41,332 bases of DNA from a virus. The position numbers were made by a program, and so were the translations under genes. Shown one piece after another: positions 303 through 39,851 of this stretch. The notes below the pieces were generated by a model that saw only the letters and a program-made list of their open reading frames with translations, ran no database searches and was not told the DNA's origin. Each line of letters opens with the position of its first letter. Positions within the stretch are counted from its first letter, which is position 1. The stretch spans positions 1-41,332 of the IMG/VR virus record IMGVR_UViG_3300005293_000042; one strand, given 5' to 3'.

Positions 303-2996
303 TCAGATGTACTTCTTGAGTGTGGATAGTGAGACACCAAGAGCATCTGCTACATCAGACTGTGTGTACCCTGATGCCAGCATGGCTTCTGCTCTGCGCT
401 GCTTGATCGACGTCATAGCTTGGTTGGTCTTAGGTGTAGCCAACTGCTTGACGACTGTGAGATCAGCGTTCTCCAGGATCTGTGTGAGCTTGTAGTTACT
501 GATCGCTCCTGCCTGGATGGCTGCCCACTGTGACTCTGTGATCTCGATGAGTGTCTTGCCTGCGCCTGTTCTTGCACGTGCCTCAGCTAGAGCTTGACCC
601 TTGACCTTCTTGAGTTCAGCCTTCTCCATGTTTGGATTCTGAGCACGCTTGGCTGCGACCCAGGTGTTTGCTAGAACCTGGGCCTGCCTTTCAAGGGGCT
701 TCTTGCTAATCGCTATACTAAGCGCAGCATCCAGCTCCTTGACTTCCTTGTCATACGCCTTCTTTGCAGAGGCGTTGTATGCAACAGGCTTAGTTGCAAC
801 CATCTCACGACGGGCCTCATTAGCAAGGTCCTTCAAGCGATTGGAGTGCTCTGCATAGAGTCGCTCCATGACAGTGCCACCATCCTTAGACAACAAGGAG
901 TAGGCATCCTCAGTTTCAGCAAGACGCTTAGACTTCTGCGTCTTAGGTACTACAGCACCAGATGCATCAGTGTATGACTCACCCGTTTCCTTGTACACCT
1001 TCTTACCGGTGACAGGGTCAATCGGGCCGCCTTCTCTAGCAGGGCGCAGCTCACGCTTGTTAACGCGAACTGTTGCACCTGCCTTAGAGATCAGCGTTTC
1101 AGCACCACCTCGTGCGCTACCCTGGTACTTCTCCTTCAACTGAGAGATGTTGTTGTCGATGGCAGACTGCTTGTAGTTCAGCTTGTGCTTCTCTGCATCG
1201 ATGACAACCATGGAGTGCTTGACAGCACGAGCAAGCTCAGATGCGTTGGCTCCCTGAATGGTCATGTCTGTGATGAGGTTAGACACAACACCCATCTGTG
1301 TGGCCTTCTCGCTGGCCGACATCACCTTCATGCCTTCGTACTGCGGATATTGCGACTTAGGATCGAAGTTCTTCAGATCCTCAAGAGCAGGCGTAGACTT
1401 CACCTTACCCAGGTTATTTGGAATCACCAGAACGGTGTCACCATCAAAGTCGGCGCCAGAAAGACGCTCCGCAACCTTGGGGCTGATGCCAACAGCATCT
1501 CGTGCACCAGCAAGAAGCTTCGAAGCTTCTGGGTGGTTGTTGTTCACGGTGAGTTCAGGAATCTCGAACGTTCCACCATGGGGGTAGCGAATCAGCGCAA
1601 CCTGCTCGCCATTCCTGAAGTTAGGCGCATAGATCTGGGTTTCGCCCAAGGATTCGATCGGGAGAATCACCTGCGTTCGCTGACGAGGCAAGGCAGCCGC
1701 CTTCAGATGCACTGCAGCAGCATCCGTAGAATCGGCATACGCTTCCAACAGCTTCTTCTTGACAGCCGGGTTCTGCAGCGAGTTGATCTCGTCCAGGTCC
1801 TTCAAGCGCTGCTCATACGTCATAGCAAGCTGCGACTTAGCAAGCGAAGGCTTCTGCTTCGACAGCATCTGGGACGACAGGTTCTTAGACCACTTGTCCC
1901 AATCGCCTTCCTCATTCACGATGTTCATCGCAGAGGTGGCTTCGGTAATCTTTCCGGTTCGCGGATCGATCTTACCGATCTGTCGAGAAATGGCGGACCC
2001 GAATGGGTTGTCCAGATCCACCTCTCCATCTTCCTTCTTCTGCATCGGCTTGAGCGCATCGAGCTTGTTACCTGTGTCCGACTTGTTGGTGTTGAACATG
2101 AGGTCCACACCAGCAGGAAGATCATCCTTGTACATCGCCATACCCTTGAGGTAGTGCGTGCCATTAACAGCAACACGCACCTGAGCGTAGTTCGAACCGC
2201 CCAGCTCAACATCCTTCACTCCGGGACGAACGTAGATAACCCCATCTGCAGCAGCGCCACCATCCTCAGCATAGCGAATGCCAACACGACGCGGGTCGAT
2301 CGACAGAGGCTTGGCGAGCCCGAGAAACGAGCGACCACCATCATCTGAGTAGTCCTGGATTTGCTTGATCTTGTCGCGGTTCATCCAGACATCACGCTGC
2401 GTGACACCAGGAGGACACAGGACCTTGTACTCGGTCTTGTTGCCATCCACACCAACCTGGTCGAGCTTAAGGCGGTGCAGCTCGTATCCCTGCTCACGCA
2501 GAATAGCAACAGCAGCGGCGAGCTTCTCCTTCGTGACTCCGACGTAGTTCTCAACACCGAGGCCTACATCCACGAAGTTCTTGTTGTCGACCTGGTCCTT
2601 GAGCATGTTAGCAACAGACAAGAGGTTGTCGTTGCGGTCCTTAGTTCCAGGAGCGAGCAGAGCACGAACCGAAGACTCAGGGACGCCCATACGCTGACCA
2701 ATGGCAACGTTTGAGTAACCCTTGTCCTTGAGTCGCTGTGCCATAGCGATCTGAGCGGCCTTCTGCTCATTGCGCGCGATGGTCTTCTGAGCACGAAGCT
2801 GGGTTGTCGTCATCCCGAGACCCTTAGCAATATCAGTCTCGGACATCCCCTGCTTACGCATGGTAGCGACGTAGTCCAGCAGGCTCTTGTTGTGGTCCGC
2901 GATGTTGTCTCCACCAGAACCCCAAGGGTAGCGACCAGAGTGGCGTGGCGTTCCGTAGTGCGCGAAAGCTTCATCCGACTCAATAACGAACGTCAT
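303..2996 (-). CDS. Single-chain RNA polymerase-like protein (YonO/QDE-1-type double-psi beta-barrel)
   Basis: The 897-residue protein carries SGADFDGDTVLVIP at about 513-526. DFDGD is the metal-binding signature of the beta'-type double-psi barrel of RNA polymerases. Upstream, YLKGMAMY (Lys 284) and FNTNK (Lys 305) sit where the beta-type barrel of QDE-1/YonO-like enzymes has its catalytic lysines. Downstream, MVVIDAEKHK (about 596-605) resembles the conserved D..K segment of that family. The size is close to SPbeta YonO (about 900 aa). Likely helix-turn-helix segments lie at about 44-65, 87-112 and 864-897. Residues 13-27 (HYGTPRHSGRYPWGSG) resemble the peptide tag of the head-region proteins. 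The ATG at 2996 has a GGAGGG site and overlaps the previous stop (ATGA). It probably makes phage RNA. The family assignment rests on motifs read by eye. Confidence 0.75.
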   Translation of the reverse strand: MTFVIESDEAFAHYGTPRHSGRYPWGSGGDNIADHNKSLLDYVATMRKQGMSETDIAKGLGMTTTQLRAQKTIARNEQKAAQIAMAQRLKDKGYSNVAIGQRMGVPESSVRALLAPGTKDRNDNLLSVANMLKDQVDNKNFVDVGLGVENYVGVTKEKLAAAVAILREQGYELHRLKLDQVGVDGNKTEYKVLCPPGVTQRDVWMNRDKIKQIQDYSDDGGRSFLGLAKPLSIDPRRVGIRYAEDGGAAADGVIYVRPGVKDVELGGSNYAQVRVAVNGTHYLKGMAMYKDDLPAGVDLMFNTNKSDTGNKLDALKPMQKKEDGEVDLDNPFGSAISRQIGKIDPRTGKITEATSAMNIVNEEGDWDKWSKNLSSQMLSKQKPSLAKSQLAMTYEQRLKDLDEINSLQNPAVKKKLLEAYADSTDAAAVHLKAAALPRQRTQVILPIESLGETQIYAPNFRNGEQVALIRYPHGGTFEIPELTVNNNHPEASKLLAGARDAVGISPKVAERLSGADFDGDTVLVIPNNLGKVKSTPALEDLKNFDPKSQYPQYEGMKVMSASEKATQMGVVSNLITDMTIQGANASELARAVKHSMVVIDAEKHKLNYKQSAIDNNISQLKEKYQGSARGGAETLISKAGATVRVNKRELRPAREGGPIDPVTGKKVYKETGESYTDASGAVVPKTQKSKRLAETEDAYSLLSKDGGTVMERLYAEHSNRLKDLANEARREMVATKPVAYNASAKKAYDKEVKELDAALSIAISKKPLERQAQVLANTWVAAKRAQNPNMEKAELKKVKGQALAEARARTGAGKTLIEITESQWAAIQAGAISNYKLTQILENADLTVVKQLATPKTNQAMTSIKQRRAEAMLASGYTQSDVADALGVSLSTLKKYI

Positions 2997-3838: not shown

Positions 3839-3880
3839 AACCAACGTTTGAGGTTGGTTATTTCTACTTCTTCTATTATA
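3839..3880 (-). promoter_or_regulatory. Candidate promoter with leader hairpin before the nuclease-RNA polymerase operon
   Basis: On the minus strand a perfect TATAAT (3880-3875) is followed about 16 bases later by a 7-bp hairpin (3839-3845 with 3853-3859) and TTTTC, then the AAAGGAGG of the resolvase-like gene. No good -35 box sits 16-18 bases upstream. The hairpin could be a weak terminator for the HNH gene or an attenuator for the downstream genes. Confidence 0.35.
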
Positions 3881-3907
3881 TGCTGCGTTTGCGATGCGCG
3901 GTGGTAT

Positions 3908-15004: not shown

Positions 15005-15199
15005 CTACCTCTTCCTGATCTTGTAGTTGCCCTGGGTCTTGCGGGAGAGAGCCGACTGAAGGTCCCGGAGAGCGGGGTTGTCCTGCAGCGGCTTCTGCGT
15101 GAGGTGCGGGGGACGAATATACGGCTTCTTGACCGTCTTCGGCTCCTCCACCTCGTCGTTAGCCTTCTTGATCGGCTTGATGTCGCTCGGCTTGGTCAT
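15005..15199 (-). CDS. Short basic Pro/Lys-rich protein (64 aa)
   Basis: The ATG at 15199 overlaps the previous stop by one base (TGATG) and has AAGGAG five bases before it. The sequence (MTKPSDIKPIKKANDEVEEP, then KPYIRPPHLTQKPLQDNPAL and a basic end KIRKR) looks largely unstructured. It probably binds nucleic acid or a partner protein, but this is a guess from composition. The tight spacing supports real translation. Confidence 0.55.
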   Translation of the reverse strand: MTKPSDIKPIKKANDEVEEPKTVKKPYIRPPHLTQKPLQDNPALRDLQSALSRKTQGNYKIRKR

Positions 15200-16098
15200 C
15201 ACGACTCCTTGAGGAGGTCGTAAATAACCCCGTCGACGTTGAAGTCCAGCAGGATCGAGCCCTCACGGCCATTGACGAAGTCCCGAGCACGCTCGTTCGT
15301 TCCGTCGAAGAGTCCGAAGTCGATGAAGTCGTCTCCATGACCCTTCACCCATCCGACGACAGCGCCGGCTGCGGTGTGCTCGAGTCCGAGAGACTCGTAC
15401 ACCTCGTTGAGGAACACGTGCCCACGGTGCTGGAGCAGGTCGTTTGCGTAGCGCTGCTGCCCGCGCAGGAAGATGAAGTTGTAGTCCGCGTGCCGCGACC
15501 AGTTCTTGGAATACTCGTCGAAGAACTTGGAGTACATCGAGGGAACGTGACGAGAGACCCGGTGCTCGGTCGTAACCTTCGGGCCCTTCTTCGTCTCCTC
15601 GACGAACTCGCGCTCCTCCCACTCGTAGCGGAACTCGCGGTCCTTGTCCTCGCCAAGCTCAGCGATGACCCGGGAACGGTACTGCTTGAAGCCCTTGTCG
15701 ACGGCAGCATATGCCGCGGCAAGGCCAGCGTTGCGCTTGTTGAGCACGTTGTGTGCACCAGTCAGGCAGGTGATCGAGGCGACACCAACCAGAAGCGGAA
15801 GCGTGTAGAGCTTCGCCAGGTTGCCGACGCCACGGACATAGATGATCGTCCGGTCCTGGTCGTAGTCCTGCTTGCTGTAGTTCATGTGGTTGGACTCGAA
15901 GAGCTCCTTGGCCGTAGCGAGGTCCGACTGCGTGTTCTCGAGCACCGACTCGACCTTGAGCGTGGAACGAGCCACGAGAACCGTGGTCGCAACGAACCCG
16001 GTAACACCGGCGACGAAGAGGACCTGCGGGGAGGCCTTCTGGAGGAGCAGTGCCTTACGAGACACCACGGAGCTGACTGCGTTTGGAACGAACTTCAT
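15199..16098 (-). CDS. DUF6353-like membrane protein, paralogue A (299 aa)
   Basis: The ATG at 16098 has AAGGAGA about seven bases upstream. Two transmembrane segments lie at about 22-42 (VLFVAGVTGFVATTVLVA) and 97-117 (LYTLPLLVGVASITCLTG). They are followed by HNVLNKRNAGLAAAYAAVDK, GFKQYRSRVIAELGEDKDR and a soluble C-terminal domain. The AAAYAAVDKGFKQYR segment matches AAAYGTLDKTFKEYK in the protein at 18146-18907, so the two are paralogues of the DUF6353-like phage membrane family. Function is unknown; an early inner-membrane role is a guess. Confidence 0.7.
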   Translation of the reverse strand: MKFVPNAVSSVVSRKALLLQKASPQVLFVAGVTGFVATTVLVARSTLKVESVLENTQSDLATAKELFESNHMNYSKQDYDQDRTIIYVRGVGNLAKLYTLPLLVGVASITCLTGAHNVLNKRNAGLAAAYAAVDKGFKQYRSRVIAELGEDKDREFRYEWEEREFVEETKKGPKVTTEHRVSRHVPSMYSKFFDEYSKNWSRHADYNFIFLRGQQRYANDLLQHRGHVFLNEVYESLGLEHTAAGAVVGWVKGHGDDFIDFGLFDGTNERARDFVNGREGSILLDFNVDGVIYDLLKES

Positions 16099-16109
16099 GA
16101 TCATTCTCC

Positions 16110-16247
16110 TTACTTGATCTTGCCCTGCTGCTGGAGCCGTCGAATAACGGCAATGACTTGAGCGTCCGACATCTCGTCGACGCGTGCGGCCCACTTCTTG
16201 CCGCCGTAGGCTGCCTTGAGTAGCGCCCTTTCAGTTTTGGTGCTCAA
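16110..16247 (-). CDS. Small conserved phage protein (45 aa), TTG start
   Basis: A short frame starts at TTG 16247 with GAGGAT seven bases upstream and ends at TAA 16110. The product opens MSTKTERALLKAAYGGKKWA and ends VIRRLQQQGKIK. The pattern Y-G/P-x-K-W-A..V-D-x-M-S-D-A-Q-V-I-A is one I recognise from many phages, always as a tiny protein of unknown role. It fills the gap between two genes with tight spacing (9 bases before, 5 bases before the next ribosome site). Confidence 0.7.
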   Translation of the reverse strand: MSTKTERALLKAAYGGKKWAARVDEMSDAQVIAVIRRLQQQGKIK

Positions 16248-17202: not shown

Positions 17203-17224
17203 GATGGGTCCTTTCGTAGGTGAG

Positions 17225-17258
17225 GGGTCTCATAATACCCCATGTTTTTCCTGCGACA
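17225..17258 (-). promoter_or_regulatory. Conserved cassette promoter P1
   Basis: The minus strand reads TCGCAG, 13 bases, TATTAT, then GAGACCCC. The same TCGCAG-N13-TATWAT-GAGACCC layout is found before four other small genes. The leader to the ATG at 17202 is about 25 bases. Confidence 0.7.
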
Positions 17259-18092: not shown

Positions 18093-18111
18093 GATGGGTC
18101 CTTTCGTAGAG

Positions 18112-18146
18112 GGGGTCTCATAATACACCGTGTTTTTTCTGCGAGT
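18112..18146 (-). promoter_or_regulatory. Conserved cassette promoter P2
   Basis: The minus strand has TCGCAG, 13 bases, TATTAT and GAGACCCC. It starts at the stop codon of the DUF6353-like gene and drives the 67-residue membrane protein. Confidence 0.7.
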
Positions 18147-18907
18147 TAGCCGATCTTATGGTAGTTCCTGACCGGCGAAACGCTGTACTGGATGTCGATG
18201 CAGGGCTCTCCGGTCTCAGGAGTGATCGCACCCACGAAATACAGCTCGCAAGGCTTGTCCGTGTTCCACCCGAGCTCGTCCGAAAGCGATGTTGGGGGCA
18301 GTCCGATGCCAATATAGAAGTCGCTGAGGCTTGCGTACATGTTGTTGTACACCTCAGCGTTGACGTCGTTCTGAGCCTTCCGGATGCGCTCCAGGCTGCT
18401 CCTGAAATATCGATCCGTCAGGCTGTCCCTGCAGAGAACGTTCCCCGTCTCGGTGACGATGATCTGAGCGGTCTGGGGCGGGTTCTCGTTGATCCGATCC
18501 TGAGCGACAGCGGCACGTACGTCGTGCTCCTTCTGGTCGCCTATCTTCTCGATCACCTTCTCCTTGTATTCCTTGAAGGTCTTGTCGAGGGTGCCGTACG
18601 CAGCCGCCAGTGCCGCAGCACGACGCGTTCCGATGCGGTTCGCGCAGATGATGCTTGCGCCCGTGATGACAAGCGTGCCCGCTGCTGGAATATAGAGCCT
18701 CCAGACGAGCTTGGCCTTCTGCTTGTTCGTCATGTCGTACTCGAGGAAGGACTGCTCTTCGGCGATGATCTGAGCAGCCTTGAACGAGGCTGTGCCCGCG
18801 AAATATGCGGACGTGATCGAACCCACAACACCGATGCCTGTCAGGATGGCAGGTGAGTTGTCCGAGAGAACGCGCTCGATGTGCTTGGCGTGCGTACTGA
18901 TTTGCAT
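18146..18907 (-). CDS. DUF6353-like membrane protein, paralogue B (253 aa)
   Basis: The ATG at 18907 follows GAAAGGATCGAC. Transmembrane segments lie at about 18-40 (PAILTGIGVVGSITSAYFAG) and 71-92 (YIPAAGTLVITGASIICANR). RRAAALAAAYGTLDKTFKEY then continues into a soluble domain with a Cys-containing beta region (GNVLCRDSLTDRYFRS). It is the paralogue of the protein at 15199-16098. The upstream hairpin at 18926-18958 lies between it and the 40-residue gene, and I see no separate promoter for it, so it may be reached by read-through. Confidence 0.7.
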   Translation of the reverse strand: MQISTHAKHIERVLSDNSPAILTGIGVVGSITSAYFAGTASFKAAQIIAEEQSFLEYDMTNKQKAKLVWRLYIPAAGTLVITGASIICANRIGTRRAAALAAAYGTLDKTFKEYKEKVIEKIGDQKEHDVRAAVAQDRINENPPQTAQIIVTETGNVLCRDSLTDRYFRSSLERIRKAQNDVNAEVYNNMYASLSDFYIGIGLPPTSLSDELGWNTDKPCELYFVGAITPETGEPCIDIQYSVSPVRNYHKIG

Positions 18908-19088: not shown

Positions 19089-19114
19089 GGCGGTGCCTTT
19101 CGTTAGGGGAAGTG

Positions 19115-19147
19115 GGTCTCATTATACACCGTGTTTTCCCTGCGAAA
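19115..19147 (-). promoter_or_regulatory. Conserved cassette promoter P3
   Basis: TCGCAG, 13 bases, a perfect TATAAT (19126-19121) and GAGACCC on the minus strand. It is placed directly after the terminator at 19144-19181 and before the 40-residue gene. Confidence 0.75.
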
Positions 19148-19443: not shown

Positions 19444-19460
19444 GACTTGTCCTTTCGTAG

Positions 19461-19491
19461 GGGTCTCATAATACGCAGTGTTTCTTTCGCG
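19461..19491 (-). promoter_or_regulatory. Conserved cassette promoter P4
   Basis: The minus strand has TCGCGA (one diverged copy of TCGCAG), 13 bases, TATTAT and GAGACCCC before the 84-residue gene. Confidence 0.65.
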
Positions 19492-19513
19492 AGGCAAAAA
19501 AGACAACCCCTTG

Positions 19514-19596: not shown

Positions 19597-19881
19597 TCAC
19601 TTGAGCTTCATGACGAAGCCGAGGGCCTTGCTCGCCACCACGTTGACCTTCTCGAAGTGGAGGATCAATACGATGCCAGCGAGGTTTCCGGCGATGCTCG
19701 CGACTACGTCCGGGCTTACGCGCTTCTGACCATCAATGGTCTTCAGCTTGTAAACGCGTTCGAGGCGCTTAAGCATCACCTTAAACTCGTCGGAATCGGC
19801 ATTGCATGCCTTCATTTCGGTGAGGATTTCAGAGGTGAGGAGGTCCAGGTCCGACGGCGTTCGCTTAAGCTTGTGGAGCAT
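19597..19881 (-). CDS. Small protein with weak C-terminal hydrophobic segment (94 aa)
   Basis: The ATG at 19881 follows GAAAGGAAACGCC. The first two thirds are polar and helical (LDLLTSEILTEMKACNADSD, then FKVMLKRLERVYKLKTIDG). The last third (VVASIAGNLAGIVLILHFEK and VVASKALGFVMKL) is hydrophobic and could insert in the membrane. It is the first gene of the cassette series and has its own promoter and terminator. Function is unknown. Confidence 0.65.
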   Translation of the reverse strand: MLHKLKRTPSDLDLLTSEILTEMKACNADSDEFKVMLKRLERVYKLKTIDGQKRVSPDVVASIAGNLAGIVLILHFEKVNVVASKALGFVMKLK

Positions 19882-19900
19882 GGCGTTTCCTTTCGTAGGG

Positions 19901-19934
19901 GGTCTCATTATACCCAGTGTATCCCCTGCGAAAT
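19901..19934 (-). promoter_or_regulatory. Conserved cassette promoter P5
   Basis: TCGCAG, 13 bases, a perfect TATAAT (19912-19907) and GAGACCCC on the minus strand. It begins just after the holin stop codon and opens the series of cassettes. Confidence 0.75.
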
Positions 19935-19935
19935 A

Positions 19936-20313
19936 TCAGATGTTCTGACCGAGACCCTCGCCGTTGACCTTGAAGACGACTTCCTTCTTCTTGTCAATCT
20001 CGTAGGGGTCCTCGTTGACGGAGAGCGTGACGGTCTTGAACCCGTCGTCGTCCGTAGCCACCTCCAAGGAGCCGTCGTACTTCTCCTCGCTGTTATTCCA
20101 CGAGCCATCGCTGAGCTTCAGCAGGGCACCCAGGAACGTGTCGATGACCGTGATAGTACCGACCACCTCGACTCCATACGGGAGCCCCCAGATCTGCGAG
20201 AGCGCGAAATACAGCGCCCCCAGCGCGGGAAGAACTACCAGCGCAAGCTGCTTGAGCTTGTCGTATGTCTTGTTGGAGAACAGCGGTGTAGTAACCGTCT
20301 GGTTGTCAGTCAC
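19936..20313 (-). CDS. Phage holin, Dp-1 family
   Basis: The GTG at 20313 has GAGGA eight bases upstream and overlaps the previous gene by eight bases. KTYDKLKQLALVVLPALGAL and YFALSQIWGLPYGVEVVGTI, then VIDTFLGALL, are the two-span hallmark of the Dp-1 holin family. The C-terminal 60 residues are acidic and beta-rich (LEVATDDDGFKTVTLSVNED), longer than in the plain family. Holins make the membrane hole that lets endolysin out at lysis. The endolysin is far away at 39.9-40.5 kb. Confidence 0.8.
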   Translation of the reverse strand: MTDNQTVTTPLFSNKTYDKLKQLALVVLPALGALYFALSQIWGLPYGVEVVGTITVIDTFLGALLKLSDGSWNNSEEKYDGSLEVATDDDGFKTVTLSVNEDPYEIDKKKEVVFKVNGEGLGQNI

Positions 20314-31888: not shown

Positions 31889-33829
31889 TCACGCGGAGGG
31901 GCGCGTGAACTCCCAGTCCGCGTCGGTGTTGCTCGGGAAGTAGTAACCCGTGGCCGGAACAGCCTCGACCTCGAGCGTGGCGCCAGCCGCAAGAGCGGTC
32001 TGCGGGCCAGCCGTCAGGGTGGTGCCCGTGTCAGCGTTCTTGTAGACGACGCCAGCCTTGGTCGGGATCGTCACCACGCCAGTGGCCGGAACGAAGGTCG
32101 GAACCGTCGGGTCAACCTGCGTACCAGTACCACGCTGGAAGACCAGCGCCGACTTGAACTTCGTGAGCGAGCCCGAGATCCGGGTCTCGTACAGGTACTT
32201 GTACTGGTTGTAGTCGATGTCGAAGTCGTCGAAGAACGTCGTCTCGCCGCCCTTGTCTGCACCGATGGTGTAGTCGGACATGTTCACGAGGATGGCGAGC
32301 AGCTCGCCACCGTTGACGCTCTCGTCGTTCATAACGTCGACCGTGACGATGTTCGACACACGAAGCTCGGACGCCAGCTCAGAGACACCGCTGTAGAGAC
32401 GGCGACCCATCTTGTCCTTGAGGAGGAGCAGGTCGGTCAGGAGGTCCTCGGTGCAGTACATGGTCGGGTTGCCCGAGCCACGGTACGTCGGACGCGCCCG
32501 GAGAATGGCCTCGATGAGGGCATCGCCGGAGACGTTCGCGGGGATCTCGACGTGGTGCGCGTAGAAGTCGTCGTCGTGCGCGATAGAGCGGATGCCGGCA
32601 CCGTCGGACAGGGCCGCAGGGTCGCGGATCTTGTCCTCGTCGTCGACCTCACGACCGTCACTGATGAGGATCGCGCGGGCGATCTCCTCCTCGAGCATGA
32701 GACGCATCTCCGCCTTGAGCCAGGCGACGACGTCCAGGTCCGTGATGTCGATGATGTCGTCACGGTCCAGCTTCTGCTTCTTGTAGACAGTGGTCGGCGT
32801 GGTGACTCGCTTGGAGAGCCCGAAGAACTCCTCCTTCTTCAGGTTACCCTTGATGTAACCCTTGGCGCGAGCCTCCTCGTGCGTGATGTCCGCCGAGAGG
32901 GACTTGATCCGCGAGAACGGCGACTTGCGGGCACCGGAAATAACTCCGTTGACCCACTCCTGCCGGCGCGAGATGAGCTCGGGGGTGTTCTGGATCGCCT
33001 TGGCGTCCGGGAACAGAAGCTCGATGTCGGTGATGCCGTACTCGCCGGCGTGCGCGATGAAGGACTCCTTGAAGGAGCCCATCTTCTGTGCGTCCTCGAC
33101 GATGGTCTTGAGCTGGTCGTGGGTCAGCTTCGGCCGCGCCTGCGTGGTCACGGCCTGGCTCTCGAACACGTTGTGCGTGATGGGCATGGCGGAGTCGCCT
33201 TCCTGGTGAGTAAGGTTGTTGTCGTCGGTGTCGCTGTGCTGAGCCGAAGCGCCCTCGAGCGCCTCGCCAATCATGTAGTGCACGACAGTCTTCTGCTTGT
33301 CGCTGAGAGTGTCGTACACATCCTTCAGGGTCTCGCCGCTCTCGGCCTCCGAAGAGTCCTCCGAGTCAGCGTGCTCGAGGCTGATTCCAGTAGTGATGAT
33401 GACCTCATCCTCCAGCTCGATCTGGTCGCCGTCCGAGTGCCGAATGGTGACGTTCTCGATCTTTGCGCCGGGGTTGGCGCCGGACAGAACCAGGCTGACC
33501 TCACGGATGGCGCCGTGGAAGACCTGCTTGGCGCGCTCGACCAGCTGGTTGGCCCAGATGGACAGCGAGTCGACGTCCCCGTGCTCGACAAGAGCCTGCG
33601 CGTTCTTGCCCTGCGGGGTGTCGTTGAAGAATCCATGAGCGTAGACGCCGTCGGCGCGGTGCTCAAGGATGGCGTAACCGAGAACGTTCTCGGGGTTCTG
33701 GTGGCCGTGCTGCCAGACCAGAGGAACACGGATCTTGTCCTGGTGCGCGAAGGCTTCGGGCATGATGGTGCGGCCGTCGGTGCACTTGAGACCTGCCTTA
33801 GTGGCCCAGCCACTAAAATTGGGTTCCAT
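31889..33829 (-). CDS. Fusion of head-maturation protease and HK97-type major capsid protein (646 aa)
   Basis: The ATG at 33829 has AAGGGAGA upstream. Residues about 1-130 are an S78-like protease: VPLVWQHGHQNP (His 41/43) and DVDSLSIWANQ (Ser 88 or 90). An acidic linker (about 145-214) precedes a capsid part with FESQAVTTQARPKLTHDQLK, a long central region and ISGSLTKFKSALVF near the end. The last ~70 residues (VVTIPTKAGVVYK, GYYFPSNTDADWEF) repeat the domain at the end of the major tail protein. An internal ATG at 33187 has AGGAAGG before it and could start a separate 432-residue capsid protein. Confidence 0.85.
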   Translation of the reverse strand: MEPNFSGWATKAGLKCTDGRTIMPEAFAHQDKIRVPLVWQHGHQNPENVLGYAILEHRADGVYAHGFFNDTPQGKNAQALVEHGDVDSLSIWANQLVERAKQVFHGAIREVSLVLSGANPGAKIENVTIRHSDGDQIELEDEVIITTGISLEHADSEDSSEAESGETLKDVYDTLSDKQKTVVHYMIGEALEGASAQHSDTDDNNLTHQEGDSAMPITHNVFESQAVTTQARPKLTHDQLKTIVEDAQKMGSFKESFIAHAGEYGITDIELLFPDAKAIQNTPELISRRQEWVNGVISGARKSPFSRIKSLSADITHEEARAKGYIKGNLKKEEFFGLSKRVTTPTTVYKKQKLDRDDIIDITDLDVVAWLKAEMRLMLEEEIARAILISDGREVDDEDKIRDPAALSDGAGIRSIAHDDDFYAHHVEIPANVSGDALIEAILRARPTYRGSGNPTMYCTEDLLTDLLLLKDKMGRRLYSGVSELASELRVSNIVTVDVMNDESVNGGELLAILVNMSDYTIGADKGGETTFFDDFDIDYNQYKYLYETRISGSLTKFKSALVFQRGTGTQVDPTVPTFVPATGVVTIPTKAGVVYKNADTGTTLTAGPQTALAAGATLEVEAVPATGYYFPSNTDADWEFTRPSA

Positions 33830-35756: not shown

Positions 35757-36302
35757 TCACCTCCCGTCCTTAGTTAGTTCGTAAACCCAGTCTTCTAGGT
35801 TTCCGTAACCTGGGGCAAACCCGAGGTCCTTGTCCTTTTTGAAGCCGATCTTTGAGTAAATATGCTTGGCTGGAGCCGCGTTAGAAGGAACCTGAAGTCG
35901 GACCTCGGTTATGTCAGTCTTCTTCTTAGAGGCCTCGATCAGTCCTCGAATGGCGGTCTCGCTATAGGCCTTACCTTGATGACTTGGAGCGATCTCTAAC
36001 CACTCGCCACGAACAGCATGCGGTCCGTCGTGCCACACTTGGAACGCGCCGACTTGTTCGCCTGCCGTGTTATGGATTCGCATCTCATAGGCGTAACCCT
36101 CAGGTTTGCGGCCCACTAACCTACCCGCAGCTATCGCAAGAGGTCCTGGGTCAGCTCTGTGAATTGTTAGGACGTCCCCATTTGGAGCTACAACGCGCGT
36201 CTTAGAACCCACCGGAGCTGCGTTAGCCACGCTTTCTCGGTACTCGGCTTTTCGAACGCCCCACTTCATGCCCTTGACACCAAAGTGTTCGAGCTCCGTC
36301 AT
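35757..36302 (-). CDS. GNAT acetyltransferase with N-terminal HxGVKGMKWGVRK tag
   Basis: The ATG at 36302 follows GAGGAGGTACTC and overlaps the previous stop (ATGA). Residues 6-18 (HFGVKGMKWGVRK) are the tag shared by four proteins here. WLEIAPSHQGKAYSETAIRG (acetyl-CoA-binding motif A) and NAAPAKHIYSKIGFKKDK (motif B) give a GNAT fold in the C-terminal half. It should acetylate a small molecule or protein. The substrate is unknown. Its place next to the portal and the tag suggest it may be packed into the head, which is inference. Confidence 0.75.
   Translation of the reverse strand: MTELEHFGVKGMKWGVRKAEYRESVANAAPVGSKTRVVAPNGDVLTIHRADPGPLAIAAGRLVGRKPEGYAYEMRIHNTAGEQVGAFQVWHDGPHAVRGEWLEIAPSHQGKAYSETAIRGLIEASKKKTDITEVRLQVPSNAAPAKHIYSKIGFKKDKDLGFAPGYGNLEDWVYELTKDGR
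36249..36287 (-). repeat. Tag repeat copy 4 (HFGVKGMKWGVRK)
   Basis: A 39-base coding repeat, nearly identical at DNA level to the copy at 37272-37310, encodes the tag of the GNAT protein. Confidence 0.85.
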
Positions 36303-36928
36303 GAGTACCTCCTCTCTAGCGAGGATTGATAGAATTCATCGTATTGTTCCTTGACCAGCGGCCAAATAACCTTCCGAATGTCGTCAAGATTCTTGACGCT
36401 GTCCGACATGCTCTTCGGAACGATGACCTCGTGCGAGATAGGCCGGCTAGAATGGTCAGTTCTTCCTTCAGGATCTACAAAGCGTGCTGCAACTTTACCA
36501 TCGCCGAAACGCTCGAAGAGTTCCTTAGACTGAATATCACTTGAGAGTGGAGAACGCTCGTACTCCGGAAGCGCGTCCGGAAGTCCGCCCTTTTCCAAGA
36601 ATCGAACCCCAAGATTCTTCCCACGAGAGGCATGCACCACTGCAGTTGGCTCTTGGAGGGCGATCTTCTCGGCCACCTTCTTTCCTGCGGAAACCTTGGG
36701 GGAATCATAGGTTAGCGGGCCTTCTTGCTGCATCTTGTACGCAACAAATGCAGCACCAGCTGCAGCAGTAATCGCAGCCGTCCCGATCAGAACCTTCTTG
36801 GCGTTCTCCTTGCGCTTGGTAATCTGTTCGGGCGTGCGAGGCGTCTTTGACGAGCCCTCGGGACCGTCCTTTCGAACACCCCATCGCATACCCTTAACAC
36901 CGAAGTGAATAAGATCCGACTCGTCCAT
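36299..36928 (-). CDS. Tagged membrane-associated protein of unknown function (209 aa)
   Basis: The ATG at 36928 has AGGAGGTGAAAC upstream. MDESDLIHFGVKGMRWGVRK is the tag region (8-20). After a polar linker, KVLIGTAAITAAAGAAFVAY (about 45-64) is a transmembrane segment. The rest is a soluble domain with PTAVVHASRGKNLGVRFLEK and SHEVIVPKSMSDSVKNLDDI. The soluble part does not match any family I know. It lies between another tagged gene and the tagged GNAT gene, in the cargo-like cluster near the portal. Confidence 0.7.
   Translation of the reverse strand: MDESDLIHFGVKGMRWGVRKDGPEGSSKTPRTPEQITKRKENAKKVLIGTAAITAAAGAAFVAYKMQQEGPLTYDSPKVSAGKKVAEKIALQEPTAVVHASRGKNLGVRFLEKGGLPDALPEYERSPLSSDIQSKELFERFGDGKVAARFVDPEGRTDHSSRPISHEVIVPKSMSDSVKNLDDIRKVIWPLVKEQYDEFYQSSLERRYS
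36869..36907 (-). repeat. Tag repeat copy 3 (HFGVKGMRWGVRK)
   Basis: A 39-base repeat encoding the tag; it carries Arg for Lys at position 9 of the tag and is the most diverged of the four at DNA level. Confidence 0.8.
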
Positions 36929-36944: not shown

Positions 36945-37346
36945 TTACCCCTGAGCGGAGGCGTAGAGAAGCCCGACGGCAGCAGCACCAAGAGCGGCCC
37001 AAGAAACTCCGCCGACCCACTTCTCACCGGTGGTGTACTGCTTAGAGAGCTTGAAGTCTTCGCCCTCGTAGAACTCCTTCTCCAGCTTGCGCATGCTCTT
37101 CTCGGCCGCGTCCTGCCCCTTGGCAGTGCGAGCCACCATGAACTCCGCTGTGGCGTTCTGGTATGCGTACTTGCGGGCGCCCTGACGTACACGGGCGTTG
37201 AGGATGGCGTCCGTTCGTTCCTTACCCTTGAGTTTGGCCGGGCCACCACTTCCGCCACCGGAATCGTCCGGCTTACGAACGCCCCACTTCATGCCCTTGA
37301 CACCGAAGTGCGCAAGAGCCTCTTCGCTTGTAATATCGGTTGTCAT
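36945..37346 (-). CDS. Tagged small protein with C-terminal hydrophobic segment (133 aa)
   Basis: The ATG at 37346 follows AAGGAGG and overlaps the TerL stop (ATGA). The tag is at 13-25 (HFGVKGMKWGVRK), followed by a Gly/Ser/Pro linker. The body is basic and helical (RTDAILNARVRQGARKYAY, KSMRKLEKEFYEG), and the end (VSWAALGAAAVGLLYASA) could be a membrane segment. No family is recognised. It is translated together with TerL, so it is made during head assembly. Confidence 0.7.
   Translation of the reverse strand: MTTDITSEEALAHFGVKGMKWGVRKPDDSGGGSGGPAKLKGKERTDAILNARVRQGARKYAYQNATAEFMVARTAKGQDAAEKSMRKLEKEFYEGEDFKLSKQYTTGEKWVGGVSWAALGAAAVGLLYASAQG
37272..37310 (-). repeat. Tag repeat copy 2 (HFGVKGMKWGVRK)
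   Basis: A 39-base repeat with almost the same bases as the copy at 36249-36287, encoding the tag of the protein that follows TerL. Confidence 0.85.
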
Positions 37347-39102: not shown

Positions 39103-39513
39103 CTACTTCTTCTTCGGGTTCTTAAGACCCTTGCTCTCGAGTAGATCGCCTACTGCCTTGGAGATGACGTCGTTGATGGCCTTCTTGATCTGCGTCCGCA
39201 TGATGTCGCCAGCAAACTTCGCCGCACCATTACCAATCTTTGCGCCCGCAGACGGGCCCTGCAGTCTAGAATACTGCTGCTCGAGGTTGAGGCGAGTAAC
39301 GTACTCCTGAAGTTCCTGATTAGACAGCGCAGCGGTACCCTTGGCCTTGATGACCTTAGCGTGCGCGTCAGCCTTTCGAGCATCAGCAGATGCGCCCTCG
39401 GAGGATCGACTCAGCTTTCCGCCCGAGTCACCGCTCTTCTTGACGCCCCACTTCATACCCTTGACACCGTAGTGAATCAGGGCATCAGAGTCGGCTCCAC
39501 TGGCGGTTGCCAT
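39103..39513 (-). CDS. Tagged small helical protein (136 aa)
   Basis: The ATG at 39513 follows GGGAGGG and gives a tag at 14-26 (HYGVKGMKWGVKK). A linker of Ser, Gly and Ala follows, then an alpha-helical body (ALSNQELQEYVTRLNLEQQY, KIGNGAAKFAGDIMRTQIKK) with a basic end (GLKNPKKK). It overlaps the connector gene by 37 bases. The body has no known domain. Its place directly before TerL and the tag link it to head assembly. Confidence 0.75.
   Translation of the reverse strand: MATASGADSDALIHYGVKGMKWGVKKSGDSGGKLSRSSEGASADARKADAHAKVIKAKGTAALSNQELQEYVTRLNLEQQYSRLQGPSAGAKIGNGAAKFAGDIMRTQIKKAINDVISKAVGDLLESKGLKNPKKK
39436..39474 (-). repeat. Tag repeat copy 1 (HYGVKGMKWGVKK)
   Basis: A 39-base repeat encoding the tag; Tyr replaces Phe and Lys replaces Arg relative to copies 2 and 4. 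Confidence 0.8.
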
Positions 39514-39851
39514 GCGATTCCCTCCCTGTAGACGTTGATGCGCCACTCCAGCTCCTGGATCTGCTCCTTGACGGCTGTGATGGCGTATGAGGAAGTTGGA
39601 GGATCGAAGAGAAGGCGGACTCGGAGAAAGACATAGGTCTTTACCGAGTTAAGCCGAGGATCTCCTTCGAGGAACTGGGACCACAAGGCTGTGGCGTCCT
39701 CGATCATGAAGCCGTTAGGTGGCCCGACCCCAAGCTGATTCAGCGTGGAGAATACCGAGTTGATGTGAGTAATCACATCGAGATCGAAAGCCGGATCTTC
39801 AGGCGCAATGTTAAGAATCTTCTTGATGCTCTTGAGGATGCTATCTTCCAT
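39477..39851 (-). CDS. Head-tail connector-like protein (124 aa)
   Basis: The ATG at 39851 has AAGGAGG nine bases upstream; a GTG at 39860 is too close to it. The helical protein (MEDSILKSIKKILNIAPEDP, DVITHINSVFSTLNQLG, YVFLRVRLLFDPP) follows the pattern of phage gp6-like head-tail connector (adaptor) proteins. Its position before TerL, not after the capsid gene, is less common. The connector would bind the portal ring. Confidence 0.7.
   Translation of the reverse strand: MEDSILKSIKKILNIAPEDPAFDLDVITHINSVFSTLNQLGVGPPNGFMIEDATALWSQFLEGDPRLNSVKTYVFLRVRLLFDPPTSSYAITAVKEQIQELEWRINVYREGIAWQPPVEPTLMP

Follow-up and report, generated by a model that had tools for sequence, protein, structure and literature searches.

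Gene, catalytic residues and predicted fold

The window, as we call the whole stretch of soil-phage DNA analysed here (41,332 nucleotides; IMG/VR record IMGVR_UViG_3300005293_000042), carries close to one end a minus-strand gene, opening with ATG, for a protein of 897 residues; in a frame check, the plus strand across 303–2996 contained stops. A profile search matched residues 5–896 to phrog_4291 ('RNA-dependent RNA polymerase') with 1325 bits, which is a full-length match. The gene is the last of the replication block, where it adjoins an exonuclease, and it lies just before the packaging and late genes when the genome is circular or integrated. Near the end of the genome the polymerase operon terminates in a hairpin with a T-run (positions 1–50; GGGGGGTGTCGCAAAAAGACACCCCCCTTTTT on the minus strand), and phages 1706 and RosaAsantewaa have a similar GGGGGG-CGCAAAAA stretch at their genome ends. 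The gene and its catalytic landmarks are as follows:

303..2996, minus strand: predicted single-chain two-barrel RNA polymerase, 897 aa, ATG start (phrog_4291, alignment, fold)
2082..2147, minus strand: first-barrel lysines K284 (LKGMAMY) and K305 (FNTNK) (conservation in 88 sequences)
1437..1451, minus strand: DFDGD, residues 516–520, putative catalytic metal-binding loop of the second barrel (invariance in 88 sequences; QDE-1 fold match)

The initial annotation had read this protein as a single-chain RNA polymerase of the YonO/QDE-1 type from the landmarks LKGMAMY (K284), FNTNK (K305) and SGADFDGDTV (DFDGD at 516–520). All three were found at the positions quoted and were conserved in an alignment of 88 relatives with 44–66 % identity to the window protein, in which D516, F517, D518, G519, D520, K284 and G285 were invariant and K305 was conserved in at least 90 % of the sequences. 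Judged from this alignment, the landmarks are more than chance, and the window protein has both the DxDGD motif and the first-barrel lysines of QDE-1/YonO-like single-chain two-barrel polymerases.

A first AlphaFold2 run with 27 close relatives was weak (pLDDT 75.8, pTM 0.52) and was replaced by a run on the 88-sequence alignment (pLDDT 87.6, pTM 0.79). When the resulting model was compared with the PDB using Foldseek, the best matches were QDE-1 (E 1.4e-8), the Thermus-phage proteins P74 gp62 and P32 gp64, and plant RDR2, all with probability 1.00; the 17 best matches were single-chain two-barrel polymerases at this same probability, followed by weaker matches to beta-prime subunits and to a crAss-like virion polymerase (6vr4). 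A fold search of BFVD returned the P23-45 protein and other phage polymerases. Two double-psi beta-barrels are thus recognized through the model and its PDB fold matches, rather than by strand-by-strand tracing, and with whole-chain TM-scores of about 0.3 the match is one of a shared core. Sequence searches of the PDB, with the single protein and with profiles, gave no polymerase and mainly helix-turn-helix or designed helical chains, so that kinship to the solved polymerases shows by fold only. The structural comparison with QDE-1 proposed earlier therefore bore out the single-chain two-barrel class, and on the model we regard this fold as near certain. The protein would be expected to synthesize RNA on DNA.

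The designation 'YonO type' did not hold in the sense of sequence, since hhalign against YonO gave a probability of 0.9 % over 19 columns and YonO lacks the N-terminal tag described below. The window protein belongs to phrog_4291 and, more broadly, to the single-chain two-barrel group; its sequence does not place it in the YonO family. It differs in nothing essential from the other members of phrog_4291 (orf75 of Lactococcus phage 1706, gp106 of Rhodococcus phage ReqiPepy6 and the actinophage homologues labelled helix-turn-helix), which share its tag, helix-turn-helix units, catalytic residues and neighbours (exonuclease, helicase and DNA primase/polymerase). YonO of Bacillus phage SPbeta, a DNA-dependent single-chain RNA polymerase that transcribes the SPbeta late genes, is the closest tested functional analogue; it is not known as a packaged protein and its promoter was not defined in that work (PMC5467207). 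Both proteins are single chains of about 100 kDa with a DxDGD motif, but YonO has a C-terminal Cys cluster and no helix-turn-helix there, and shows no detectable profile similarity. QDE-1 and plant RDR2, the best PDB fold matches, have about 10 % identity over the alignment and differ in being eukaryotic RNA-silencing enzymes with neither tag nor phage promoter.

The database name raises the alternative of an RNA-templated polymerase, copying for instance phage or host RNA. QDE-1 and RDR2, among the closest solved folds, do use RNA templates, and there was a weak Pfam RdRP match. However, QDE-1 has also been solved on DNA templates, the DNA-dependent YonO falls within the same broad fold group, and the gene is carried by a tailed dsDNA phage in whose DNA a promoter-like element is repeated; the name probably reflects fold similarity only, and we consider this reading highly improbable.

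Distribution of the polymerase among phages

The gene was present in 250 of 50,697 phage records, the carriers including phages of Arthrobacter (95), Gordonia (55), Streptomyces (54), Lactococcus (13), Curtobacterium (7), Rhodococcus (4) and Microbacterium (4). About 219 of these deposited records are actinophages, and the earlier statement that such polymerases are rare in long-tailed phages of actinobacteria was therefore wrong. The homologues are usually labelled helix-turn-helix protein, hypothetical protein or RNA-dependent RNA polymerase. The closest one in a named phage has 59 % identity to the window protein, and genome assemblies of gut Firmicutes and others also encode the polymerase, mostly at 42–54 % identity. 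The word polymerase is absent from a survey of Arthrobacter phages, and a paper on Faecalibacterium prophages makes no mention of the polymerase.

Two further proteins of the window, its DNA primase/polymerase (253 records) and its capsid-protease fusion (244 records), occurred in the same phage groups, which makes the polymerase a core gene of one phage lineage. The fusion, at 31889–33829 on the minus strand, joins the major capsid protein to an HK97-type head protease (phrog_3270; weak TIGR01543), an arrangement noted for Arthrobacter phages of clusters AM/AU (PMC5513430).

Terminal regions of the polymerase and the DUF7211 proteins

Helix-turn-helix units were predicted on both sides of the polymerase core, and a short tag precedes them at the N terminus:

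2910..2966, minus strand: N-terminal tag FAHYGTPRHSGRYPWGSGG, residues 11–29, predicted disordered (alignment columns, model)
2655..2882, minus strand: two predicted helix-turn-helix units in the N-terminal region, at residues 39–59 and 96–114 approximately (HTH_38, Sigma70_r4; phrog_664 at 41–112; model helices)
309..410, minus strand: predicted C-terminal helix-turn-helix, residues 863–896 (Pfam HTH_23, E 6.7e-9; HTH_7, 3.2e-8; Sigma70_r4_2, 1.1e-5; model helices)

Together with the repeated element and the virion evidence presented below, the tag and the helix-turn-helix units go beyond what the initial annotation had described. The presence of such units at both ends would fit a degenerate polymerase fold acting only as a DNA-binding regulator, as the label 'helix-turn-helix DNA-binding protein' implies, but neither the catalytic triad nor the first-barrel lysine varies among the 88 sequences, the most distant of which has 44 % identity, and we give this explanation next to no weight.

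The tag follows the near-invariant pattern LxHYG..R.SGRYPWGSG and lies within a segment (residues 1–35) modelled as disordered, with pLDDT below 50. The string SGRYPxGSG was found in 160 of 167 full-length polymerases, most of the others differing slightly or having a doubtful start, and in 2.5 Mb of sequence no other protein carried it except in locus L146, where a stump of 42 aa stands at the polymerase start. Related tags were found on other proteins 145 times, always in the same orientation as the polymerase. These proteins of the same phages start with LxH[YFH]G[IV]xG[MQ][KR]WGVR, which corresponds to Pfam DUF7211 (PF23847), and four of them in the head module of the window flank the terminase and lie upstream of the portal:

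39103..39546, minus strand: DUF7211-type tagged protein adjoining the terminase (HYGVKGMKWGVKK)
36945..37346, minus strand: DUF7211-type tagged protein downstream of the terminase (HFGVKGMKWGVRK)
36299..36928, minus strand: DUF7211-tagged protein (HFGVKGMRWGVRK) (PF23847, E 9.5e-11)
35757..36302, minus strand: DUF7211-tagged GNAT-like acetyltransferase just upstream of the portal (PF23847, E 4.5e-12; phrog_1249 acetyltransferase)

The bodies behind the DUF7211 tags are largely unrelated (GNAT acetyltransferase, papain-fold glutamine amidase, endolysin-like, unknown), as expected of a delivery tag. Among 56 tagged proteins scanned, five matched the papain-fold glutamine amidase family (PF15644) and one an endolysin-type repeat; these six came from prophage loci among L092–L171, in the head-module region downstream of the polymerase, and may be cargo delivered into the bacterium. 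Tagged genes of other phages are labelled acetyltransferase, hydrolase, peptidase or RNA ligase. When two different DUF7211 tags were used in tblastn at permissive E-values, essentially the same phage groups were recovered as with the polymerase. When the N-termini of four polymerases were compared with the 25-residue DUF7211 model (PF23847), none matched even at a cut-off of E 10; the kinship that we infer between the two tags is one of pattern, from the shared LxH[YFH]G...G..WG. The literature searched, which covered few subscription journals, held no account of the role of the tag, for which we suggest packaging of the polymerase.

Evidence for a possible virion location

In EU081845, the GenBank entry under which Lactococcus phage 1706 was originally deposited, orf75, the polymerase homologue, is labelled 'structural protein', as is orf7, which encodes a protein with two DUF7211-type tags. 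The label of orf75 was later overwritten in RefSeq NC_010576. It persists indirectly in the note on ReqiPepy6 gp106, 'similar to Lactococcus phage 1706_gp75, structural protein'. We take these labels in the 1706 record to derive from mass spectrometry of virions; no paper on 1706 virion proteomics was found in the literature searched. Two small proteins of the 1706 replication region, orf62 (15052–15330) and orf71 (19658–20011), are also labelled structural and are either packaged or contaminants, so that the preparation may have been impure. The evidence for a virion location is this single annotation of phage 1706, and we judge packaging to have about an even chance, tilted slightly in its favour. 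Passage of a polymerase of about 98 kDa through a narrow siphovirus tail would require unfolding, which counts against delivery; entry of the enzyme into the cell is put forward as a suggestion.

Known systems offer two precedents. Thermus phages P23-45 and P74-26 encode single-chain two-barrel polymerases with phage-specific promoters, gp96 being a virion protein and gp64/gp62 non-virion enzymes (PMC10770324). The window protein matches the fold of gp62/gp64, and whereas the Thermus virion enzyme is fused to the tape measure, in the window the two are separate genes and the polymerase has a short tag and helix-turn-helix units. The crAss-like phage phi14:2 has in gp66 a two-barrel virion polymerase, like the enzyme proposed here and a weak fold match to it (6vr4), but gp66 has over twice the length (its structure comprises 2,166 residues) and belongs to a different phage group. 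We know of no tag in gp66 comparable to that of the window polymerase. In our best model the window enzyme would work most like the P23-45 and crAss-like virion polymerases, and it shares with YonO the single-chain form.

A repeated promoter-like element

Gaps between genes of the window and its relatives contain a repeated element unlike a sigma70 promoter, TCGC-N7-ACA-N5-TATAAT-GAGACCCC. The window has five copies, at the early genes where the non-structural half starts, as against none in 100 shuffles, and a weaker variant 903 bp upstream of the polymerase start:

19896..19931, minus strand: promoter-like element 1 (TCGCAGGGGATACACTGGGTATAATGAGACCCC)
19457..19492, minus strand: promoter-like element 2
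19110..19145, minus strand: promoter-like element 3
18109..18144, minus strand: promoter-like element 4
17221..17256, minus strand: promoter-like element 5
3864..3899, minus strand: weaker variant upstream of the polymerase (GCGCATCGCAAACGCAGCATATAATAGAAGAAGTAG), score 9.8

A weight matrix built from eight genomes found 5–16 strong copies per genome and none antisense. In three annotated genomes 33 of 36 copies were mostly intergenic, although only 6–8 % of the sequence is non-coding, and most copies lay about 30 bp before a start codon. Most copies are in the early region just after the structural genes; in the genomes scanned, none stood where the late genes begin. Of 152 polymerase loci, 101 had a variant of the element upstream of the gene, at a median distance of 919 bp, compared with two on the antisense strand and none in shuffled sequence. 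Three other explanations of the element were set aside: a chance repeat (no copies in shuffles), an operator that is antisense or symmetric (the antisense strand had no copies) and a feature common to all phages that have a single-chain polymerase (SPbeta, which has YonO, gave none above threshold over 40 kb). We found no description of the element in the literature searched, in which few subscription journals were covered.

Many elements follow a terminator-like hairpin with a T-run, as in the window at about 17.2–19.2 kb (minus strand) and in loci L083 and L172, which gives the early region the look of terminator-promoter-gene cassettes strung together. In ReqiPepy6 (L173, 14374–14479) an element stands directly before an annotated tRNA, and in Lactococcus phage 1706 (L089, about 1050–1180) one stands before a tRNA-like stretch. 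The early region of the window also encodes two members of phrog_2152, a family of unknown function, at 15199–16194 and 18146–18907 (minus strand), both apparently membrane proteins.

The association was also examined in reverse, by picking contigs from IMG/VR by the element alone. There were 37 such contigs with a length of at least about 35 kb, and 32 of them carry the polymerase gene. Four of the five without a full polymerase belong to the same lineage and are cut off ahead of the gene; G008 (35 kb), the fifth, gave a weak partial polymerase match. Because the tag, the element, the polymerase, the capsid-protease fusion and the DNA polymerase all mark one lineage, co-occurrence cannot identify the reader of the element, and another conserved phage factor could read it. 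We nevertheless consider it likely that the element is the cognate promoter of the polymerase, which would then recognize it.

The TATAAT part invites a different explanation, namely that the element is a host sigma-A promoter aided by another conserved phage DNA-binding protein, with the polymerase acting elsewhere. The -10 part of the actinophage elements is often exactly TATAAT and could be used by host sigma-A, and the lineage encodes other small helix-turn-helix proteins. Against this, a search of the 25 bases upstream of the element in three annotated genomes revealed no -35-like signal, and TCGC and ACA are among its most conserved positions yet are not sigma-A sites. The element also occurs in phages of gut bacteria, and in those of gut Firmicutes TATAAT drifts to TTTTAT while TCGC and ACA are kept; moreover, the spacing is identical in phages of Streptomyces, Arthrobacter, Gordonia, Rhodococcus and Lactococcus. 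We therefore regard a sigma-A promoter as decidedly unlikely.

Proposed infection cycle

Our best model, to which we assign an even chance, is that a virion-packaged DNA-dependent polymerase starts early transcription at the repeated elements. The polymerase would be produced together with the replication and late genes, and its N-terminal tag would take it into the new particle along with the DUF7211-tagged proteins encoded beside the terminase and portal. At infection it would enter the cell with the DNA, where its helix-turn-helix units would recognize the element, and it would need no host sigma factor to start early mRNAs, some 30 bp ahead of the early start codons. Through the element that lies about 0.9 kb upstream of its own gene, the polymerase would later be required for its own expression and perhaps for that of the genes that follow.

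An enzyme made after infection from the early/replication operon could instead remain outside the virion and transcribe later genes, as YonO does for the SPbeta late genes, the tag serving for instance in assembly or in targeting to the membrane or a replication complex. The place of the gene at the end of the replication block, between the exonuclease and the packaging and late genes, would suit such a role, as would the element upstream of it. The concentration of elements at the early region, with none where the late genes of the scanned genomes begin, speaks against it, as does the structural label of 1706 orf75, and we hold this alternative to be unlikely.

In its widest form, the virion-packaged model would apply to a widespread lineage of long-tailed phages of actinobacteria, lactococci and gut Firmicutes. 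The polymerase of this lineage would be packaged by a tag related to a general virion-cargo tag (DUF7211) and injected, and with its own helix-turn-helix units and a promoter of fixed architecture it would, without sigma, start the infection independently of host transcription. This full combination we propose tentatively, as somewhat short of an even chance.

If it is true, some 250 deposited phages, many of them isolated by students on Arthrobacter, Gordonia and Streptomyces, carry a self-contained system for starting transcription that their annotations have hidden, and phages of both GC-rich and GC-poor hosts would supply a small polymerase-promoter pair. Tagging would be a third route by which a two-barrel polymerase enters the virion, besides fusion to the tape measure and the giant protein of the crAss type, and the DUF7211-like tag would become a candidate signal for predicting phage proteins that are delivered into cells. 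Such a phage would begin to read its genes without the machinery of its host.
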